Source: a virus. Taken from it: a stretch of 20,451 nucleotides of DNA. The notes beneath the pieces were generated by a model that saw nothing but the letters and a program-made list of their open reading frames with translations, was not told where the DNA came from and searched no databases. How positions within the stretch are numbered: position 1 is the stretch's first letter; each line of letters begins with the position of its first letter. The stretch is from IMG/VR virus record IMGVR_UViG_3300008516_000086, positions 1-20,451 of that record, one strand, 5' to 3'. Shown piece after piece: positions 4,879 through 18,471 of this stretch. The position numbers and the translations under genes were made by a program.

Positions 4879-6561
4879 TTACAACGGTCTAAATGGGCGG
4901 TTTTCTGTTTCGTCTATTTCTATTACTGATTCCGTTGCGAGTCTCTTTAATTCAGCTTGGTCATTGGCTCCTTGGCGTGCTTGAATCTCCAACTCACGTA
5001 TGGCTATTATATCCGATAATGCCCCACCATTCCTCTCCAGTTCTTCTATGGATTCCCTATAAGAGTCTGCTTCGGCATTTAGTTTAGCGTGCATGACTGT
5101 TGCCCTGTTATGAATATCTTGCCACTGGTCCCTGTTCCTTCCATTAACTATTAAATTAGACGGGTTCGGCATCGTTTGTTCTGGTGTACCAGCATCAGCG
5201 GCGGCCATCTGCTTCTTGGTGTTTTCCACAGCACTCTGGGTAGCCGGTGCTGCCTGCTCGGTCTTCTGCCGCTCAGAAACCACAGCCACAGACTGGTTGA
5301 GTTCTGCGTTGAGAGCCTCCAGTTTGTTGTTCAATGCAGTCTTCCTGGCATCCTGCTCCGGGGTTGATCCACTCGCTGTTTGTGTGGAGATTTCCGTAAG
5401 CTCACCACGAACGGTTTCTATATCATCCTCAATCTCGGATGGGGGTCTGAAACTGGGTGGCACAATGTTCCCTGGTCCCAATACCACTTGTGGAGTGGTG
5501 GTCTCCGGCATAGGCGTCATCGGGTTCGGTGATGTCTTGGATACCGGCACCGAATTGTTCTTCTGATCTTCCATCTTACCGTGATACCCGTCGAACAGGT
5601 CGGACGTTACCTGATCCGGTGGTCGAACCCCGGTCAGAAGCTCAACTGCATCCGCAACCTCAGACGTGCTCCTACCTAATGCAAAATAGTAGTTCTCGTA
5701 CTCGAAGTTGACGGTCACCTCAACCTTGGATGTCCTATCTTCAGTATCCAGCCCGTCGTGGTTGATTGCGGTGAACACCGGACGGTGGAAATAATAAATG
5801 TTGACAGAATTTGGCTCGGTTCCCAAATCGTATATCACGATGCTGTTGAAGAAATGCCTTTTGTAGTTGGGCTTCAACTTGAGACCCATCGAGTGCCTGG
5901 AATTCATATGACTGCGGGGCTCATCGGTTTCGGCATTCGTTATCAAGTGGTTGTACCCCACATTCGGCTGATCGTATGAAAATGCATCCGAGCCAAAAGC
6001 GGTATTGAAATTCGGTGGGCGGACTGGTCCAACACTGCTCGTGTTACCATCCGTCAATAATACTGACCCAATGTCGCCGGAGTGGGAGTAAAAGTTGATG
6101 TACTCCTTGATCAGGGCTGCCGTAATGGAAGTGGTGTCATCGTCGAATGTCATCGATGCTGCCGGGAATTCCATCTTAGTGGGGAGCTTCACGTATTTGT
6201 TGTACGAGCGCAACGTTTCGACGGCAAATGAGGGTTTGGGGTGATCGATTCGCTTCAACTGGGTGTACATGTTACCGTTATTGAGGAATTTCTTGAGGTT
6301 GGTTACTGCGATCCCGTCCAGGAGAGCATCCTCATTTACATGGAATTCAACCATATAGGTGTATTTCTGCCTGGGAACCATCAGTGGTCTCAGGTTGACA
6401 CGCTCAGATGCATAGTTCATAAACGGAAAACCGCCTACTATTCCGTGAGTTGTGTCACCCTGTCCCGGAGATGCAGCATTATTGGCGCTGTCATCATTCT
6501 TTTTCTTCTGGCGGAGAATCTTGGTTTGGACAAAACTCTGTAATTCGTCTAATGCACCCAT
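4879..6561 (-). CDS. Tail-tube-fold / baseplate tube initiator-like protein with long C-terminal extension
   Basis: A 560-aa virion protein candidate. The N-terminal 300 residues follow the tail-tube pattern of T4 gp19/gp54: PRQKYTYMVEFHVN (about 64-76) as an early beta strand and, near residue 240-296, IVIYDLG, HRPVFTAINHDGLD and KVEVTVNFEYENYYF, which resembles the closing strands of tube proteins. After this comes a Pro-rich linker (344-376) and Gln/Glu/Ala-rich probable coiled coils (376-455 and 480-545). T4 gp54 is only about 320 aa, so the second half is an addition. ATG at 6561 is preferred to an in-frame TTG at 6576, since GGGA then sits upstream at normal spacing. gp53- or gp48-like roles are possible. 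Confidence 0.5.
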   Translation of the reverse strand: MGALDELQSFVQTKILRQKKKNDDSANNAASPGQGDTTHGIVGGFPFMNYASERVNLRPLMVPRQKYTYMVEFHVNEDALLDGIAVTNLKKFLNNGNMYTQLKRIDHPKPSFAVETLRSYNKYVKLPTKMEFPAASMTFDDDTTSITAALIKEYINFYSHSGDIGSVLLTDGNTSSVGPVRPPNFNTAFGSDAFSYDQPNVGYNHLITNAETDEPRSHMNSRHSMGLKLKPNYKRHFFNSIVIYDLGTEPNSVNIYYFHRPVFTAINHDGLDTEDRTSKVEVTVNFEYENYYFALGRSTSEVADAVELLTGVRPPDQVTSDLFDGYHGKMEDQKNNSVPVSKTSPNPMTPMPETTTPQVVLGPGNIVPPSFRPPSEIEDDIETVRGELTEISTQTASGSTPEQDARKTALNNKLEALNAELNQSVAVVSERQKTEQAAPATQSAVENTKKQMAAADAGTPEQTMPNPSNLIVNGRNRDQWQDIHNRATVMHAKLNAEADSYRESIEELERNGGALSDIIAIRELEIQARQGANDQAELKRLATESVIEIDETENRPFRPL

Positions 6562-6589
6562 TAAGTTGGTTCCCAATTTTTCAGTATTA

Positions 6590-7732: not shown

Positions 7733-8707
7733 CTAATCCATCATGTAAATCGAGCTGATAGACTCGCCAGAATGTGCCCTTCTCACTGTTTCTCCAAGGC
7801 TTTCAGCCATCGAGACGACCCGGATTTTACTGCTTCCAGTGGCTTCTTCACTGAGTGGGATGGTATCCGACACCACCAATTCTGTGAGGACCGACCCTTC
7901 GATGTTCTCGACGGCTTTCCCAGATAGTACCGGGTGGGTACAGTAAGCCGACACGCCAGTTGCCCCATTCTCTATGAGTGCAGCCGCACCCTTGCATAAT
8001 GTCCCACCAGTATCGATCATGTCATCCACCAGGATGCAGTGGTTTCCTTCAACGTCACCCAGGACGTTCATCACTTCGGACACGTTCGCTTTGGGGCGAC
8101 GTTTGTCGATGACTGCCAGATCAACATCCAGCTGCTTGCCTACCGACCGGGCTCGCTCAACACCACCAGCATCCGGGGATACCACCACCACATTATTGGT
8201 GAAATACCGATGGTATATGTCTGCGGTGAACCGGGTGGATGCACTAACATTTATAAACGGGATATCGTACATTCCTTGAATCTGGGCGGCGTGAATATCC
8301 ACGGTGATGACGGCATCGACTCCGGATGCCTGGATCATATCAGCCACAACCCTGGCGGAGATAGGCATCCTGCGGAATTTAGGACGACGGTCCTGGCGGG
8401 AGTACCCCAGGTATGGAATGACAGCAGTAATGGACCTTGCCGAGGATCGCTTCACGGCGTCTGCCGTGAGGAGCAGTTCCATGAGATTGTCGTTGACCGG
8501 GGCACAAGCTGACTGGATGATGTAGACATCTTTCCCACGAACAGAATCGAATATTTCAACGGAGATTTCCCGATCACTAAACACCGTGATTTCCGCACTA
8601 GCCAACGACTTCCACTTATTTTTCCCACACGATTGTCTTGATATCTTGTCTGCCAGCCCCGGAATAGAAGTACCGGCGATAATAACCATGTCATCATCAG
8701 ATGTCAT
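7733..8707 (-). CDS. prs: Ribose-phosphate pyrophosphokinase (PRPP synthetase)
   Basis: Makes PRPP from ribose 5-phosphate and ATP, the precursor of purines, pyrimidines and NAD. The 324-aa product is full length (E. coli Prs 315 aa) and strongly conserved: ACAPVNDNLMELL (67-79), YSRQDRRPK (102-110), VDIHAAQIQG (136-145), SPDAGGVERAR (177-187), the catalytic loop DKRRPKANVSEV (201-212) and the PRPP loop VDDMIDTGGTL (227-237). The start at 8707 has GGGG upstream; the upstream phosphatase gene ends 15 nt before. It sits in an insertion between sheath and tube genes. NAD-rescue enzymes of some phages (ADPR-PP synthetases) share this fold, but the catalytic loops here look like ordinary Prs. Confidence 0.95.
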   Translation of the reverse strand: MTSDDDMVIIAGTSIPGLADKISRQSCGKNKWKSLASAEITVFSDREISVEIFDSVRGKDVYIIQSACAPVNDNLMELLLTADAVKRSSARSITAVIPYLGYSRQDRRPKFRRMPISARVVADMIQASGVDAVITVDIHAAQIQGMYDIPFINVSASTRFTADIYHRYFTNNVVVVSPDAGGVERARSVGKQLDVDLAVIDKRRPKANVSEVMNVLGDVEGNHCILVDDMIDTGGTLCKGAAALIENGATGVSAYCTHPVLSGKAVENIEGSVLTELVVSDTIPLSEEATGSSKIRVVSMAESLGETVRRAHSGESISSIYMMD

Positions 8708-8722
8708 TACGTGCGTGCCCCT

Positions 8723-9301
8723 TTAGTCGCAAGTTTTACCGTAAAAGAAATAGGGAATAGCGTTTTCTATATTCCACCTTATAATATCAGTTTCGTCTGA
8801 TTTCTTCAAGTGTCCGATGATGGTTTTTATCACATCATTATGGGTCACTAACAAAACATTTTTATTGTCATCAACCAGCGGGAACACTGTTTCCTTGAGG
8901 AATGGTATAAGCCGCTGTTCCACATCCTGTAAGGACTCGCCCTGTGGGGGAGCTTCGAAATAATCCCGGTTCCACAGTTTGTATTTCCTGGGAGGGAGGG
9001 CTTTCCTGACTTCAGGGTATGGGGTACCTTCGAGAGAGCCGTAAGATCGTTCCCTGAGTTCCTGGACCAGTTCCATTTCCACATTATCTGAGAAGTTGTT
9101 AGTCGCCAGCACTATATTGGCGGTATCCTGACATCGCTCAAGGTCCGAGCAAAACACATAGTCAATATCATAGTCAGCCAAGCTCCTACCGGCATCGGTG
9201 GCTTCTTCCCTTCCGGCTTCTGACATCAAGTGGTTAACCTGCCCGGAAACTATGTTGTCCTCCTGGGCTACAGAAGAACCGTGACTGAGTAAAATTAGCA
9301 T
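8723..9301 (-). CDS. Histidine phosphatase / phosphoglycerate mutase family protein with altered RHG motif
   Basis: The family transfers or removes phosphate through a phospho-histidine. The 192-aa product begins LILLSHGSS, where the usual LVRHGES motif has lost its Arg: S6 replaces it, next to the nucleophile H7. Other active-site elements remain: CSDLERCQDTANIV (R56), ELRERSYGSLEG (E84), PPQGESLQDVEQR (119-130) and LLVTHNDVIK (H154). It is shorter than glycolytic dPGM (about 250 aa) and nearer to small phosphatases. Its ATG overlaps the stop of the upstream gene by 7 nt and prs follows by 15 nt, so it is in one operon with PRPP synthesis. The substrate cannot be told from sequence. Confidence 0.85.
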   Translation of the reverse strand: MLILLSHGSSVAQEDNIVSGQVNHLMSEAGREEATDAGRSLADYDIDYVFCSDLERCQDTANIVLATNNFSDNVEMELVQELRERSYGSLEGTPYPEVRKALPPRKYKLWNRDYFEAPPQGESLQDVEQRLIPFLKETVFPLVDDNKNVLLVTHNDVIKTIIGHLKKSDETDIIRWNIENAIPYFFYGKTCD

Positions 9302-9892: not shown

Positions 9893-12247
9893 TTAGAACG
9901 GGAATTCGTCACCGGTGCCAAGTATTGTGATCGGTACAAAGATGAACTCGATGCTCTTCGCAGGCTTGATAGCCACGTCAACATACAGTTCATTCTGGTC
10001 GATTGCCGACGGAGGATTGTTAGCCTCGTCACAACGTACTGCATAGTCGAACAGAGCACGAAGGGATTTAAGACCAGCAAGATACCTTTCGGTAACAACC
10101 GTTGCAGAGCGACGGGTGACCGGATCGTTGATCTCGAACAGGAACGGCTCCAGGAGACGGGTAAGGTCGTACTTCATCTTGGCGATGAGGCGGGCGACGT
10201 TTACACGGTCAAGGGCAGAAGCGGTTGCTGCGTTGGTCTTCTGACCAAAGACAGTCAAACCACGGTTCGGGATGAACGCAATCGGGTTGATGTTGTTCTC
10301 ATAAAGAACGTCACGCTGAGACTTGATCAGCTGCACTGGCACGTACTCGCCATCATTGTTCAGGTAACCAACAGAACCAGCATTGTCAACACGACCACGT
10401 GTGTAACCAGCAGGCGGGAACCAAGGTGCAGAAACCTGATCGCTGTAAGCCATAGTGCGCATCATGAAGTGTGAAGGCGGAACGAACACGTCGTTGCCGT
10501 CAACGTTGGTGGAGATACCCCAGGGGTACCAGAAACCAGCGTATACGGACGGGGCAGAAGCAAAACCATCTTCACCGGTGGATACAACGTTATTAGCGTT
10601 GGTGATCCATTCAGCTGCGGTAACTTCACGACCAGTCGGGATGCCATTCGGAATCATGAACTTCGGAGTATCGGCAACGATGAAGCTAACTTCGTTGTTG
10701 TCGGTGTTCAGAGCATTCATCTCGTCATACAGTTCAGGGTAACCGGGACTGGTGATGAGCTGGAAATAGTTCACTTCGGCACGAATCTCGTCGTTGACCA
10801 CCAGGGATGACTGCATCTTCTCAACAACGATTTCACGCTGTGAGCGGCGACCGAAAGTGTCACCAGTTGCGGGAGCCCAGTAGTTGCCAGTCTCGGAAAC
10901 CACGCTGTAGGTAGAACCATCAAAGGTGACCGTAACGGCCTCGAATGTGGGATCATAAACCTTGACGGTGTTGCGGGTCTGAGACTCGCCGGTGTTCATC
11001 CAGTAGGTACCGTTCACCACAGCGGACGCATTCGGGTCATCAGACTGAATAAGAACAGCACTGGTGATATCGCCCCAGATGGCACCGTCCCAGCGTTTGA
11101 TCACTGGCCAGTTGTCAATGTTGTCGGCGGTTGAGATGTCAACCCAGATAGCACCAACGTTCGGGAACGCAGGAGCGGAGCCGGAGATAACTTTCTGCAA
11201 CGCAGTCGGGTTTGACACGGTGGTGGTTTCAATAGGAACCCACTGGTTGCCATAACCGTAATCTGTACCTTCAACATACAGACCGAAAGTAGTAATGTTG
11301 TCATCGAACCAATAGGTACCAGTTGCTGGCTCACTAACCGGAGCATCGTTCTGTACAAAAACTGGAAGTGGGATGAACTCAAGACCAGTGCCGACATAAA
11401 GCGGGCGGGCACCAGTGATGTTGATGAATGAAACGTCTTCCCAGATAACACCTTCGTTAGGAACCGGCATCACAGTATCACGGATGATAGCCTGGGTAAT
11501 CCAGACGCCATCAGCGGCACGGAAACGGGTCAGCTGTAAGTTGGTTCCACCGGCAGAAGAAGTTGTCTTGTACCAGAAGTCACCAACGTCAGGAGTAACC
11601 GGACCAGTTTGGGAAACATGTAAGTTGGTTGTTGCACCGTACTCAGCCTGAAGCTCGGCATCTGAGGCTACGTGCCACACGCCACCATTCTTGAACTTGA
11701 TAGCACCATCGGCATTCGAGTAGTCAAACGCCCAGTCACCATCTACACCATCTACTGACGTAGGGGTGGTGGTGTATACTGAGAAAGGAACTGCCTGCCA
11801 AGTTGCACCAACCAAGCGGAAGATACCACCAACCACTGCATCTTCATCGATCCAGTAAGTGCTGTCCGGGGGAGGAAGAACTGGCTCGACATCAGTGGTA
11901 ACGAGCTGACCGAGGTCGATGTCTGCACGTATAACATATGCCCTGCTTCCCTGTCCGAGGAAAGAGTGAGCTGAAAGAAGACCGTATTCATTGGTCTCGT
12001 CGCCGTTTACGGGGTCACCGTCGGCAGTTACGAACACCGGGTTGCCATAATTCTGAAGCAGTTCACGCTGCGAAGAAACTACCCGAAGTTTATTAGATTC
12101 TGTAGTACCAGGAGCGGTTCCGGAACCATCAGGAGTAATTTTATTTGCCCTGGTTGCAAATACAAACAGCGGCACTGTTTGGGGACTCGGTTCACTGTAG
12201 ATGGACTGGTCATTTACTGTTACCGATACTGAAGGAGACGTGGCCAT
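9893..12247 (-). CDS. 18: Contractile tail sheath protein (T4 gp18-like) with about seven internal W-repeats
   Basis: The sheath contracts to drive the tube into the cell. The 784-aa protein is longer than T4 gp18 (659 aa). Residues 1-115 and about 465-784 are sheath-like: the C-terminal part has VYAGFWYPWG, PPAGYTRGRV, NPIAFIPNRGLTVFGQKT and the closing RLIAKMKYDL... PFLFEINDPVTR region. Residues 126-445 hold about seven degenerate modules with a G-(T/D/A)-(Y/F/I)-W core at about 131, 171, 224, 268, 312, 367 and 415, each followed by a strand and another Trp (for example STYWIDED, GDFWYKTT, GTYWFDDN, GAIWVDIS, GTYWMNTG). They sit where T4 gp18 has its surface-exposed domain. ATG at 12247 has AGGA upstream. 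Confidence 0.93.
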   Translation of the reverse strand: MATSPSVSVTVNDQSIYSEPSPQTVPLFVFATRANKITPDGSGTAPGTTESNKLRVVSSQRELLQNYGNPVFVTADGDPVNGDETNEYGLLSAHSFLGQGSRAYVIRADIDLGQLVTTDVEPVLPPPDSTYWIDEDAVVGGIFRLVGATWQAVPFSVYTTTPTSVDGVDGDWAFDYSNADGAIKFKNGGVWHVASDAELQAEYGATTNLHVSQTGPVTPDVGDFWYKTTSSAGGTNLQLTRFRAADGVWITQAIIRDTVMPVPNEGVIWEDVSFINITGARPLYVGTGLEFIPLPVFVQNDAPVSEPATGTYWFDDNITTFGLYVEGTDYGYGNQWVPIETTTVSNPTALQKVISGSAPAFPNVGAIWVDISTADNIDNWPVIKRWDGAIWGDITSAVLIQSDDPNASAVVNGTYWMNTGESQTRNTVKVYDPTFEAVTVTFDGSTYSVVSETGNYWAPATGDTFGRRSQREIVVEKMQSSLVVNDEIRAEVNYFQLITSPGYPELYDEMNALNTDNNEVSFIVADTPKFMIPNGIPTGREVTAAEWITNANNVVSTGEDGFASAPSVYAGFWYPWGISTNVDGNDVFVPPSHFMMRTMAYSDQVSAPWFPPAGYTRGRVDNAGSVGYLNNDGEYVPVQLIKSQRDVLYENNINPIAFIPNRGLTVFGQKTNAATASALDRVNVARLIAKMKYDLTRLLEPFLFEINDPVTRRSATVVTERYLAGLKSLRALFDYAVRCDEANNPPSAIDQNELYVDVAIKPAKSIEFIFVPITILGTGDEFPF

Positions 12248-12338: not shown

Positions 12339-13637
12339 ATGTGGATTTGTAATGTGAAAAAATTAACAACTGATGAGTTTATAAAAAAAGCAACACACGC
12401 TCATGGTGAAAAATACGATTATTCAAAATCCAAATATATTAATAGTAGAACAAAAATATCTATTACATGCCCGGAGCATGGAGATTTTTTACAGGTGCCG
12501 AGTGCACACATCTATGGTTCACATGGTTGTCCATCCTGTAATGGTGGTGTTGATCACACACTTGATATTTTCGTAGATAATGCTAATAAAAAACATGGAC
12601 ATAAGTACGATTATTCCAAAGCGACATATACCAACTCCGCCACCAAAGTAGATATAATATGCAACGACCACGGTATGTTCAGCCAACGTCCAGTAGATCA
12701 CCTTCATGGGCAAGGATGCCCCAGGTGTGGTAATGATAAAAATAGAAAAGATAAAGAATTCGTACAGCGGGCTAACACAATCCACAATAATAAATATGAT
12801 TATTCAAAAGTAGAATATCACCGGGTTGATGAAAAAGTAATCATCACGTGTCCGATCCATGGAGATTGGGGAACCAAACCAAGCACACACTTATCCGGTC
12901 ATGGGTGCCCAAAATGTGCACACCCACATATGTCACGTGATGAGTTTCTTCAGAAAGCCTTTGATGTGCATGGACCAAAATATGAATACAATAAGGTGAA
13001 ACTATTAAGTTCAAGGGATAAAATAATCATAACCTGTAGTAAACATGGAGATTTTAATCAGAAGACCGGATCGCATCTTTCCGGTAGTGGGTGTCCGGAG
13101 TGTCAACACGACAAGAGAAGACTAACCACGGAAATTTTCATAAAACGCTCAAAGATGAATCATGATATAGAATACGACTACTCTAAAGTCATTTACACCA
13201 ACTCACACCATCACGTAACTATCATATGCCCAGACCATGGTGAATTTCAACAAAAGGCATACCAACACTTGGAGGGGAAAGATTGTAGACTTTGCAAATA
13301 CGTACAACATCCAGGTGGATACAATAACAGAATATTTAAACATCACCCCGAACTAGCACAAAGGAAAGGGATATTTTATATCGTACAGTTTACCTTCCCG
13401 GATGAGGAATTCGTAAAGATAGGGATAACGATTCATAACGCCAGGACTAGACTGAGCTATAACAAAGTAACCCTTAAAGTATTGGCAGAATTACCCATGT
13501 CCGTAGAAGATGCATTCCATCGGGAACAAGCGATACTCAATAATCCGGATTTCAAAAAATATCAGTATACACCAAAAAATATAAAATCCGGTGTTACGGA
13601 ATGTTTTAAAATGGACGTGTTGCCACTATTATTTTAG
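12339..13637 (+). CDS. Free-standing GIY-YIG-like endonuclease with five DUF723-like zinc-binding repeats
   Basis: Probably a homing-type endonuclease. The 432-aa protein has five tandem repeats of about 60 residues (10-67, 73-130, 137-193, 199-255, 262-319). Each follows HG.KYDYSK..Y, then I.CP.HG.F, then HL.G.GCP.C, with paired Cys and His that could hold zinc; this is the DUF723-like pattern. The C-terminal domain (344-423) fits GIY-YIG: GIFYIVQF, VKIGIT (359-364), R371 and E396 in HREQAIL. It is much richer in A+T than its neighbours, lies on the opposite strand between sheath and gp15 genes, and its stop codon overlaps that of gp15, all as in a mobile gene. The start could be GTG 12354 instead. 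Confidence 0.8.
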   Translation: MWICNVKKLTTDEFIKKATHAHGEKYDYSKSKYINSRTKISITCPEHGDFLQVPSAHIYGSHGCPSCNGGVDHTLDIFVDNANKKHGHKYDYSKATYTNSATKVDIICNDHGMFSQRPVDHLHGQGCPRCGNDKNRKDKEFVQRANTIHNNKYDYSKVEYHRVDEKVIITCPIHGDWGTKPSTHLSGHGCPKCAHPHMSRDEFLQKAFDVHGPKYEYNKVKLLSSRDKIIITCSKHGDFNQKTGSHLSGSGCPECQHDKRRLTTEIFIKRSKMNHDIEYDYSKVIYTNSHHHVTIICPDHGEFQQKAYQHLEGKDCRLCKYVQHPGGYNNRIFKHHPELAQRKGIFYIVQFTFPDEEFVKIGITIHNARTRLSYNKVTLKVLAELPMSVEDAFHREQAILNNPDFKKYQYTPKNIKSGVTECFKMDVLPLLF

Positions 13638-14482: not shown

Positions 14483-15706
14483 TTACTTATTTCCTTGGTT
14501 CGTGGGTCCGTAGGGGTTTGCATCGGCGTGCTTCCCTGGGGATATCTCGTCAGCTTCAACATTCTCAGTCGGATTATCCGGCGACGGATCAGAGCGACGT
14601 TCCCTATCAGTGAGTACGTCATGGATTGAGCGCAGTTCCCAATTACGGTCCTTATCCTCGCATGAGCGATCCGACATAAACTCACGAAGCTTGACAACCC
14701 AGTTGTACGGCTGCCACTCACGCTTGATGTCTTTCTCACGCATCTTCCATTTGTTATTTTCGAACCTAAACAAACGGTTAGGCTCAAAGTCAACCCTTAT
14801 AAACCAGTCGCCATCGGATGGGTTGAATGGGAACTCAATGCCCTGCCCGACCGGTAATCCGTTGTCCGGTAATCCATCTTCCATCCAGCGATACGGTTTG
14901 CGATCCGGATGATCTGGATCGAAATACATATAAGTTGTGTCGAACCACGTTGTGTGAGCGTGCTCGTTGGCAAGCTCTTGATTAGCCTCAGTGACTGCCA
15001 TGACGGCATCCTTGGTGGACATCTGCTCAGCCAATGTCTTACCGTACTCATCAACACGCTCGAACAGGTCGAGGAATTCTTGCTGGTGTCGCAGGGGCTT
15101 CAGTATCACGGCAGAGATATGTCTTGCGTACATCGGGTCATACCCCGTCGGGGACCAGATAATGGAAGCAACCTCATACCAACGGTTTGCCACACGCCCG
15201 TCGAGACCGACCTCACGCAGGTGGGGTAGCTCAACCACATCACCTGGGATCATTCTGCGACCAAGTTGAATCTCCATAGTCTCAGCATGGAATTCCATGG
15301 TGAGGATATCATTGGCTAACGCCAGACCGAATCGGGCGTATTCTAATTCGTTTTGGGAAACGGTGTACGCACCCTTGATGATCGGAATCTCATCAAAGTC
15401 GTATTCACGGTCTCTGTTCTCATTGAGGATCGGGTCTTGAATACCCATGAACGATCCGACATCCAGTGGCTCCTGCCCTGATGCTTCCACCGGTACCGGG
15501 GAGTCATTATCATCCTGGCGAACGCCAAGTGGGTCTGCGTCCTGGGCGAACGTTCCTTTCAGTCGGTAGATATTACACCACACACCAGACATCTCCAAGT
15601 GACCTTTCATCAACTTGGATAGGAACCTACTGTTTTTTGACTGGTTGCCGAAGTGGGCTCCTTGCTTATAGAGTCCGAACGGCTTTGTTGGTTTAAACTT
15701 TGGCAT
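14483..15706 (-). CDS. 14: Neck protein (T4 gp14-like) with W-module in C-terminal half
   Basis: gp14 with gp13 forms the neck that closes the packed head. The 407-aa product exceeds T4 gp14 (256 aa). The family part shows HLEMSGVWCNIYRLKG (36-51), EYARFGLALANDILTMEF (122-139), RRMIPGDVVELPHL (150-163) and YEVASIIWSPTGYDPMY (177-193), matching the gp14 pattern FxxFGxxxxDExxL, PxxGDLIYxP and FEIxxV. Residues 296-323 (SDGDWFIRVDFEPNRLFRF, then NNKWK) repeat the kind of GDW/W module found in the sheath; cyanophage gp14 proteins, as I recall, carry the same segment. AGGA precedes the ATG at 15706, which lies inside the end of the 54-aa gene. Confidence 0.82.
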   Translation of the reverse strand: MPKFKPTKPFGLYKQGAHFGNQSKNSRFLSKLMKGHLEMSGVWCNIYRLKGTFAQDADPLGVRQDDNDSPVPVEASGQEPLDVGSFMGIQDPILNENRDREYDFDEIPIIKGAYTVSQNELEYARFGLALANDILTMEFHAETMEIQLGRRMIPGDVVELPHLREVGLDGRVANRWYEVASIIWSPTGYDPMYARHISAVILKPLRHQQEFLDLFERVDEYGKTLAEQMSTKDAVMAVTEANQELANEHAHTTWFDTTYMYFDPDHPDRKPYRWMEDGLPDNGLPVGQGIEFPFNPSDGDWFIRVDFEPNRLFRFENNKWKMREKDIKREWQPYNWVVKLREFMSDRSCEDKDRNWELRSIHDVLTDRERRSDPSPDNPTENVEADEISPGKHADANPYGPTNQGNK

Positions 15707-17733: not shown

Positions 17734-18471
17734 ATGAAGAATCAAAAGATTGTAGAAACACCGAAGATCAAAGCTGACACCCTGTGCCACATCATTCTGG
17801 ACATGTCCGGATCAATGCGGGGCATTGCCAGCGCAACCCGAGAGGGGTTAAACAACTATATCAACACCATGAAGGAAGACAAGAACGATGATATCGTCCT
17901 GGTATCGGTTACTGTTTTCGACTCGGAAGGTTGGCATGGTGATATCTCAGTTCATATCGATACCATTATGGATATGGTCCCGCTTGCTGATATCCCCGAG
18001 ATCACCGAGGAACATTACAAGCCACGTGGTGGCACGCCGATGTACGATGCAATCGGTAAGGCTGTGTGTCGCACCGAGAGTGCCCTGGAGGGCATCGAGG
18101 GGAGTCCCGAGGTCTTACTCGTGGTTATCACGGACGGTGACGAGAATACCTCCCAGGAGTTCAAGCAGAACCAAATCAAGACGCTGCTGGAAACCAAGGA
18201 AGGACAGGGCTGGTCAACGATCTATCTTGGTGCAAACCAGGATGCGTGGGCTGTTGGTAGTTCCCTCGGGATCAATTCTGGAAACGTGAAGGCATATGCC
18301 GCCACGGTTGACGGGATCAAGGATGACGTGTTTGCCTCAGTGGCGAATGCGACTGTCTGCTACCGGTCTATGAAGTCTGAGGCTAAAATAGCTGGGGTTG
18401 GTGATGGGTACACCACCAAGTCATTCTTTGCTGCCGATCTCGGGCTGCCGGAAGAGAAAGACGCCGAGTAA
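17734..18471 (+). CDS. von Willebrand factor A (VWA) domain protein with intact MIDAS
   Basis: VWA domains bind protein partners through a metal ion held by the MIDAS motif. The 245-aa protein has ILDMSGSM (D23, S25, S27), RGGTPMYDAIG (T101) and VVITDGDEN (D134), so all MIDAS elements are intact. The strands alternate as in the Rossmann-like VWA fold (VLVSVTVF, EVLLVVITD, STIYLGANQ). The rest of the protein after residue 175 is short and lacks another known domain. There is no signal peptide, so it acts in the cytoplasm or virion. It follows the 279-aa gene by 21 nt with AGGA before the ATG, and a G/C-run hairpin follows its stop. The partner and process are unknown. Confidence 0.88.
   Translation: MKNQKIVETPKIKADTLCHIILDMSGSMRGIASATREGLNNYINTMKEDKNDDIVLVSVTVFDSEGWHGDISVHIDTIMDMVPLADIPEITEEHYKPRGGTPMYDAIGKAVCRTESALEGIEGSPEVLLVVITDGDENTSQEFKQNQIKTLLETKEGQGWSTIYLGANQDAWAVGSSLGINSGNVKAYAATVDGIKDDVFASVANATVCYRSMKSEAKIAGVGDGYTTKSFFAADLGLPEEKDAE

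Follow-up and report, generated by a model that had tools for sequence, protein, structure and literature searches.

The window, that is the whole stretch of DNA analysed here, comprises 20,451 nucleotides of a viral genome (IMG/VR record IMGVR_UViG_3300008516_000086), and its minus strand carries at 9893..12247 an open reading frame of 784 aa which, judged by its sequence and by its predicted structure, is a gp18-like contractile tail sheath protein with an insertion. Two PHROG tail sheath families match this ORF (E 6e-177 and 4e-40), the C-terminal sheath domain PF17482 is found at 46 bits against a Pfam cut-off of 26.9 (E 5e-12), and a sequence match to T4 gp18 spans residues 533-782 (E 4e-31). 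The whole-protein model superposes on the sheath of Klebsiella phage KP1 with a Z score of 28.9 over 334 residues at 3.4 Å and on the T4 sheath with a Z score of 26.1, with approximately 330 core residues aligned, while a Foldseek search with the same model ranks T4 chains at the top. The sheath core is split in two. Its N-terminal part (residues 1-115, 11903..12247, minus strand) aligns in the model with solved sheaths from residue ~ 15-23 on, and its C-terminal part (residues 465-784, 9896..10855, minus strand) is identified by PHROG, PF17482, the T4 gp18 sequence match and the model. Indeed, residues 23-115 and 465-775 match the T4 and KP1 sheath core, and an insertion at residues 116-464 interrupts the core fold. 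Ordinary sheath domains on both sides of a repeat region had been proposed in a preliminary description of this DNA, and the core matches obtained on either flank with PHROG, Foldseek and the KP1 and T4 superpositions agree with it. Cultured relatives at 35-42% identity include RaK2, 121Q, PA5oct, Munch, GAP32, Phosso and Atu_ph07, the tblastn alignments with RaK2, 121Q, PA5oct and Atu_ph07 covering most of the query, and many IMG/VR contigs encode further sheath relatives. Searched alone by tblastn against cultured phages, the insertion gave almost no matches.

According to PHROG, the genes found near the sheath gene in the window encode a tail tube, a sheath stabilizer, a neck-type protein, a head-tail adaptor and a terminase. 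The neck-type virion protein (phrog_11591, E 5e-36; 14483..15706, minus strand) lies at a gp14-like position between the sheath stabilizer and head-tail adaptor genes. Between the sheath and sheath-stabilizer genes, a 432-aa ORF on the opposite strand (12339-13637, plus strand) contains several treble-clef/DUF723-type repeats and matches PHROG endonuclease families (E 7e-82); by its sequence it looks like a free-standing homing endonuclease. Genes for a ribose-phosphate pyrophosphokinase and a histidine-phosphatase family protein (7733-9301, minus strand) separate the sheath gene from that of the tail tube. A second tail-tube-like protein (4879-6576, minus strand) matches PHROG tail tube families weakly at residues 66-164 and has a long extra C-terminal part, and a 245-aa ORF on the strand opposite the tail genes (17734-18471, plus strand) weakly resembles von Willebrand type A domains, at a score below the cut-off.

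In T4 gp18, domain I (residues 98-188) is nested within domain II (88-97 and 189-345), itself nested within domain III (24-87 and 346-510), and domain I juts out without taking part in contacts between subunits, while the baseplate and the long tail fibres in their retracted state bind to it (PMC3004832). The two proteins share the same core fold and the same insertion point and, since the insertion lies between the same two core halves as in T4, it stands in for domain I as well as domain II. Thus the repeat region does occupy the position of the outward-facing T4 domains, as was first suggested, but it corresponds to domains I and II and not to the exposed domain I alone. The content of the insertion is where both sheaths differ: residues 88-345 of T4 gp18 form a six-stranded barrel together with a beta-sandwich (PMC3004832), whereas the window sheath has 349 residues of repeated four-strand units.

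Seven units, named M1 to M7, were delimited along the insertion, all on the minus strand. M1 covers residues 119-158 (11774..11893), with a core Trp at W132, a second Trp at W150 and predicted strands over residues 131-158. It is followed by the divergent M2 (residues 161-212, 11612..11767; W172 and W191), M3 (residues 213-257, 11477..11611; W225 and W249), M4 (residues 258-299, 11351..11476; W269), M5 (residues 300-355, 11183..11350; W313 and W336), M6 (residues 356-402, 11042..11182; W368 and W391) and M7 (residues 403-460, 10868..11041; W416 and W457). The core Trp at residues 132, 172, 225, 269, 313, 368 and 416 are thus 40, 53, 44, 44, 55 and 48 residues apart, and in most units the second Trp is found 18-24 residues past the core one. 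The preliminary description had placed about seven degenerate repeats in residues 126-445 (10913-11872), and profile comparison, shuffles and AlphaFold2 all bear this out. The core that it gave for them, G-x-(Y/F/I)-W-x-(D/N), is exact in M4 to M7, but M1 has S in place of G, M3 ends in K and M2 (GDWAFD) is divergent.

Tryptophan is enriched in the insertion, with 15 of its 349 residues against 4 of the 435 elsewhere in the sheath (p = 0.004). A relaxed form of the core pattern, picked after the fact, matched the insertion seven times, whereas 2,000 shuffles averaged 0.4 matches and never gave more than 3; because two of these seven matches are the second-Trp positions of M3 and M6, this count is a test of composition and not a count of modules. 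Comparison of the units with each other by profile-profile alignment gave probabilities of 95% for M1-M5, 91% for M1-M3, 83% for M4-M6, 80% for M1-M7 (over 11 columns) and 60% for M3-M5, while none of 167 column-shuffled controls exceeded 50% and a further 56 included a single one as high as 28%. An HMM trained on M1, M5 and M6 only scores its own members at 42.8, 45.4 and 23.4 bits respectively, and touches M3 (7.6 bits) and M7 (5.2 bits) outside the training set, both scores being within the range of shuffled sequences, the best of which reached 9.3 bits. M2 is the weakest repeat, and its main support comes from the strand pattern together with W172 and W191, which are invariant in close relatives.

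Structure prediction with AlphaFold2, using an input alignment of 34 relatives, gave a mean pLDDT of 85 for the whole sheath; the insertion modelled by itself reaches a pLDDT of 94 and a pTM of 0.76. In the model four short strands recur seven times in register with the core Trp, in M2, M4 and M7 as in the other units, and the conserved Trp lie mostly within or beside predicted strands. One continuous fold like domains I-II of T4 gp18, the outcome named beforehand as refuting the repeats, did not appear: a PDB comparison of the insertion model gave nothing at E <= 0.001, and none of the 50 matches listed is a sheath, although absence from that list does not exclude the T4 barrel/sandwich fold; no clear PDB structural match, Ig-like or other, was obtained. 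In BFVD a sheath (TM 0.68) and an unnamed 537-aa protein come out on top, ahead of fibres and collagen-like virion proteins whose similarity is only local. A structure search with M6 gave weak matches in phage tail proteins with Z scores up to 3.5. ORF18 of Geobacillus virus E2, a weak structural match, could not be linked to the module in sequence, since a module-bearing Geobacillus phage fibre matched no solved chain, and an Arthrobacter query matched just a low-complexity repeat protein.

We then considered the conservation of the insertion among relatives. Its length is 341-355 aa within the clade of the window and up to 856 aa across all relatives. In the 15 closest sequences 11 of the 15 insertion Trp are invariant, including all seven core Trp; outside the second position the core Trp are mostly invariant. 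For the two least saturated pairs, dN/dS is 0.074 and 0.089 in the insertion compared to 0.075 and 0.063 in the core, the insertion dS of these pairs being already high (~ 1), and at the protein level the insertion changes approximately twice as much as the core (dN). In the sheath of the related phage L022 modules score best against their counterparts with the same number, and so do most modules of another relative, L045, this correspondence being less clear in more distant sheaths. Hence, the units were duplicated before the clade arose. The RaK2 and 121Q sheaths have just about two recognisable module copies.

The module is also present in other virion proteins of relatives, a finding that goes beyond the preliminary description. 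A profile built from sheath modules only finds approximately 17 copies (E 7e-49) in a reading frame of the L022 genome (L121:1663-12699, plus strand), and chance would hardly produce so many copies within a single protein. This frame encodes 3,679 residues, with many of its W-modules separated by QSTADGK-type segments, and is open to the end of the examined stretch. The sheath-module profile also matches fibre-like proteins, a virion protein of ~ 3,080 aa and a neck-type protein of related phages. In the fibre-like proteins one or two copies are found near the start, at residues ~ 56-135, just past a shared N-terminal region (phrog_15511), and the PHROG families containing the module are phrog_33754, phrog_8309, phrog_15511 and phrog_21412. 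In fibres the W-module occurs singly, in pairs or in long arrays between spacer segments, whereas in the window it is located inside a contractile sheath subunit. With the module consensus, 166 records of cultured phages were matched, and most of the matches listed carry a tail fibre or tail protein annotation.

The fibre-type module shows a Trp-marked pattern, G-[DT]-x-W-x-D ... G-x-x-W, with the profile P...G-x-x-W-x-D...G-x-x-W. Using a profile built from non-sheath, non-neck modules only, five of the seven sheath units fit the fibre type with probabilities of 82-97% (M6 97%, M3 94%, M5 94%, M1 90% and M4 82%), while M2 (40%) and M7 (14%) are weak as module copies. This fibre-only profile exceeds 20 bits in 59 of the 91 sheath insertions listed, whereas none of the 628 shuffled insertions reported and no sheath core reaches that score. 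The reciprocal search is partly circular because a sheath profile had served for the initial choice of the fibre modules. Furthermore, the neck-type protein of the window carries a single copy at residues ~ 284-325 (14732..14857, minus strand), identified by comparison of the neck-homologue profile, which reaches 95.8% with the fibre-module profile and 83% with M1; this W-module is kept in two dozen homologues. One building block therefore appears to be reused across the tail surface, in sheath, fibres and neck. No family naming the module was found in Pfam or NCBIfam, and searches of the PDB with module profiles found no solved chain carrying it. The ulvan-lyase trefoil, Mtd_N, DUF2793 and DUF7360 were rejected as its family, being weak and below the cut-off, and OXA beta-lactamases, an Arp2/3 subunit and virginiamycin lyases, which came up as PDB sequence matches of module profiles, were regarded as chance matches. 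Altogether, it is very probable that the insertion is an array of seven units of a recurring module and that the module is shared with these other proteins.

Expansion of the sheath is in itself already known. In 2022, multi-domain sheaths of jumbo phages were modelled as type 3, with 888 aa and four domains in RaK2, 887 aa and four in SP27/Asteriusvirus and 1086 aa and at least five in Atu_ph07 (Evseev et al., PMC9230969). These sheaths belong to the same protein clade as the window sheath and, like it, have extra outer domains in general; they differ in that most of the extra domains are termed Ig-like, and the passages covered here mention neither the repeat nor a link to fibre and neck modules, the word 'repeat' being absent from the text of that paper (PMC9230969). 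The tie between the array and the fibre and neck modules was not met in the open-access literature searched, which does not amount to a full survey.

An ordinary contractile-sheath core carries an array of approximately 350 aa, made of seven small beta modules, at the site of T4 domains I and II. By homology with T4 the array would face outward and form an outer layer on every subunit, so that the modules probably coat the tail. Most likely, the modules are part of the virion architecture, each of them a rigid, Trp-pinned bead, and the array would brace neighbouring subunits. It would also offer a repetitive surface where fibres or hair-like appendages with the same kind of module could rest or dock, much as domain I of T4 holds the retracted long tail fibres. 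Hairy appendages in rings along the sheath have been described for phAPEC6, a phage likened by its authors to 121Q and RaK2 (PMC7247149), and appendages of this type are, by analogy, a candidate docking partner. A structural role or one with virion partners is favoured because of the fixed length, the Trp scaffold, the low dN/dS, the copy in the neck and the anchor-end site in fibres; for this structural or docking role taken separately, the case is about evenly balanced. The whole explanation, from core and array to shared module and role, is given a probability of approximately 0.5.

Trp-rich surface modules are often sugar-binding, and tail fibre proteins commonly contain the module seen here. 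Both points fit weak adhesins along the sheath, with host glycans or surface polymers as ligands, and adhesion is what Evseev et al. suggested for extra sheath domains in general (PMC9230969). Binding of glycans or of the host by the modules is possible, but dN/dS in the insertion, at 0.07-0.09, is low and close to the core value, the position of the conserved Trp in or beside strands is scaffold-like, several fibres have the module near the anchor end and not at the tip, and no Pfam carbohydrate-binding family was matched above the cut-off. An adhesive function is hence considered unlikely, even though it is the strongest of the alternatives. Somewhat less likely still, the expansion would be near-neutral baggage of a large genome, with outer domains lacking a specific role. 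Sheath size does rise with genome size across phages (PMC9230969), and the length of the insertion varies from 341 to 856 aa among relatives, yet purifying selection is strong and length constant within the clade of the window, and several modules are kept at the same position in divergent sheaths.

The count of seven units with four short strands each is also that of a seven-bladed beta-propeller, and the array could accordingly be a single closed domain of this kind instead of a string of beads. Weak kelch-type matches in the PDB point in this direction, but their E values are above 0.6 with a TM of ~ 0.1, the pTM of the insertion is just 0.76 despite a pLDDT of 94, and other proteins of relatives have single or paired copies of the module. 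The propeller, raised by the strand count, was left without support in the PDB searches and we regard a closed domain as improbable, the least probable of the readings weighed here. Only slightly ahead of it stands a speculative extension of the docking idea, in which sheath, neck and fibres would share a self-associating module and fibres or hairs would dock along the entire tail by like-to-like contacts, as a common fastening code of the jumbo-phage clade.

Returning to an array with a structural or docking role, the sheath of phAPEC6 consists of 25 rings of six subunits (PMC7247149). Each virion of this studied relative thus contains well over a hundred copies of the sheath protein. The outer domains of giant-phage sheaths, left unexplained so far, are now tied to a module of fibres and neck. 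This gives a testable idea of where fibres and hairs may be attached, and the module profile can be used to find the module elsewhere.
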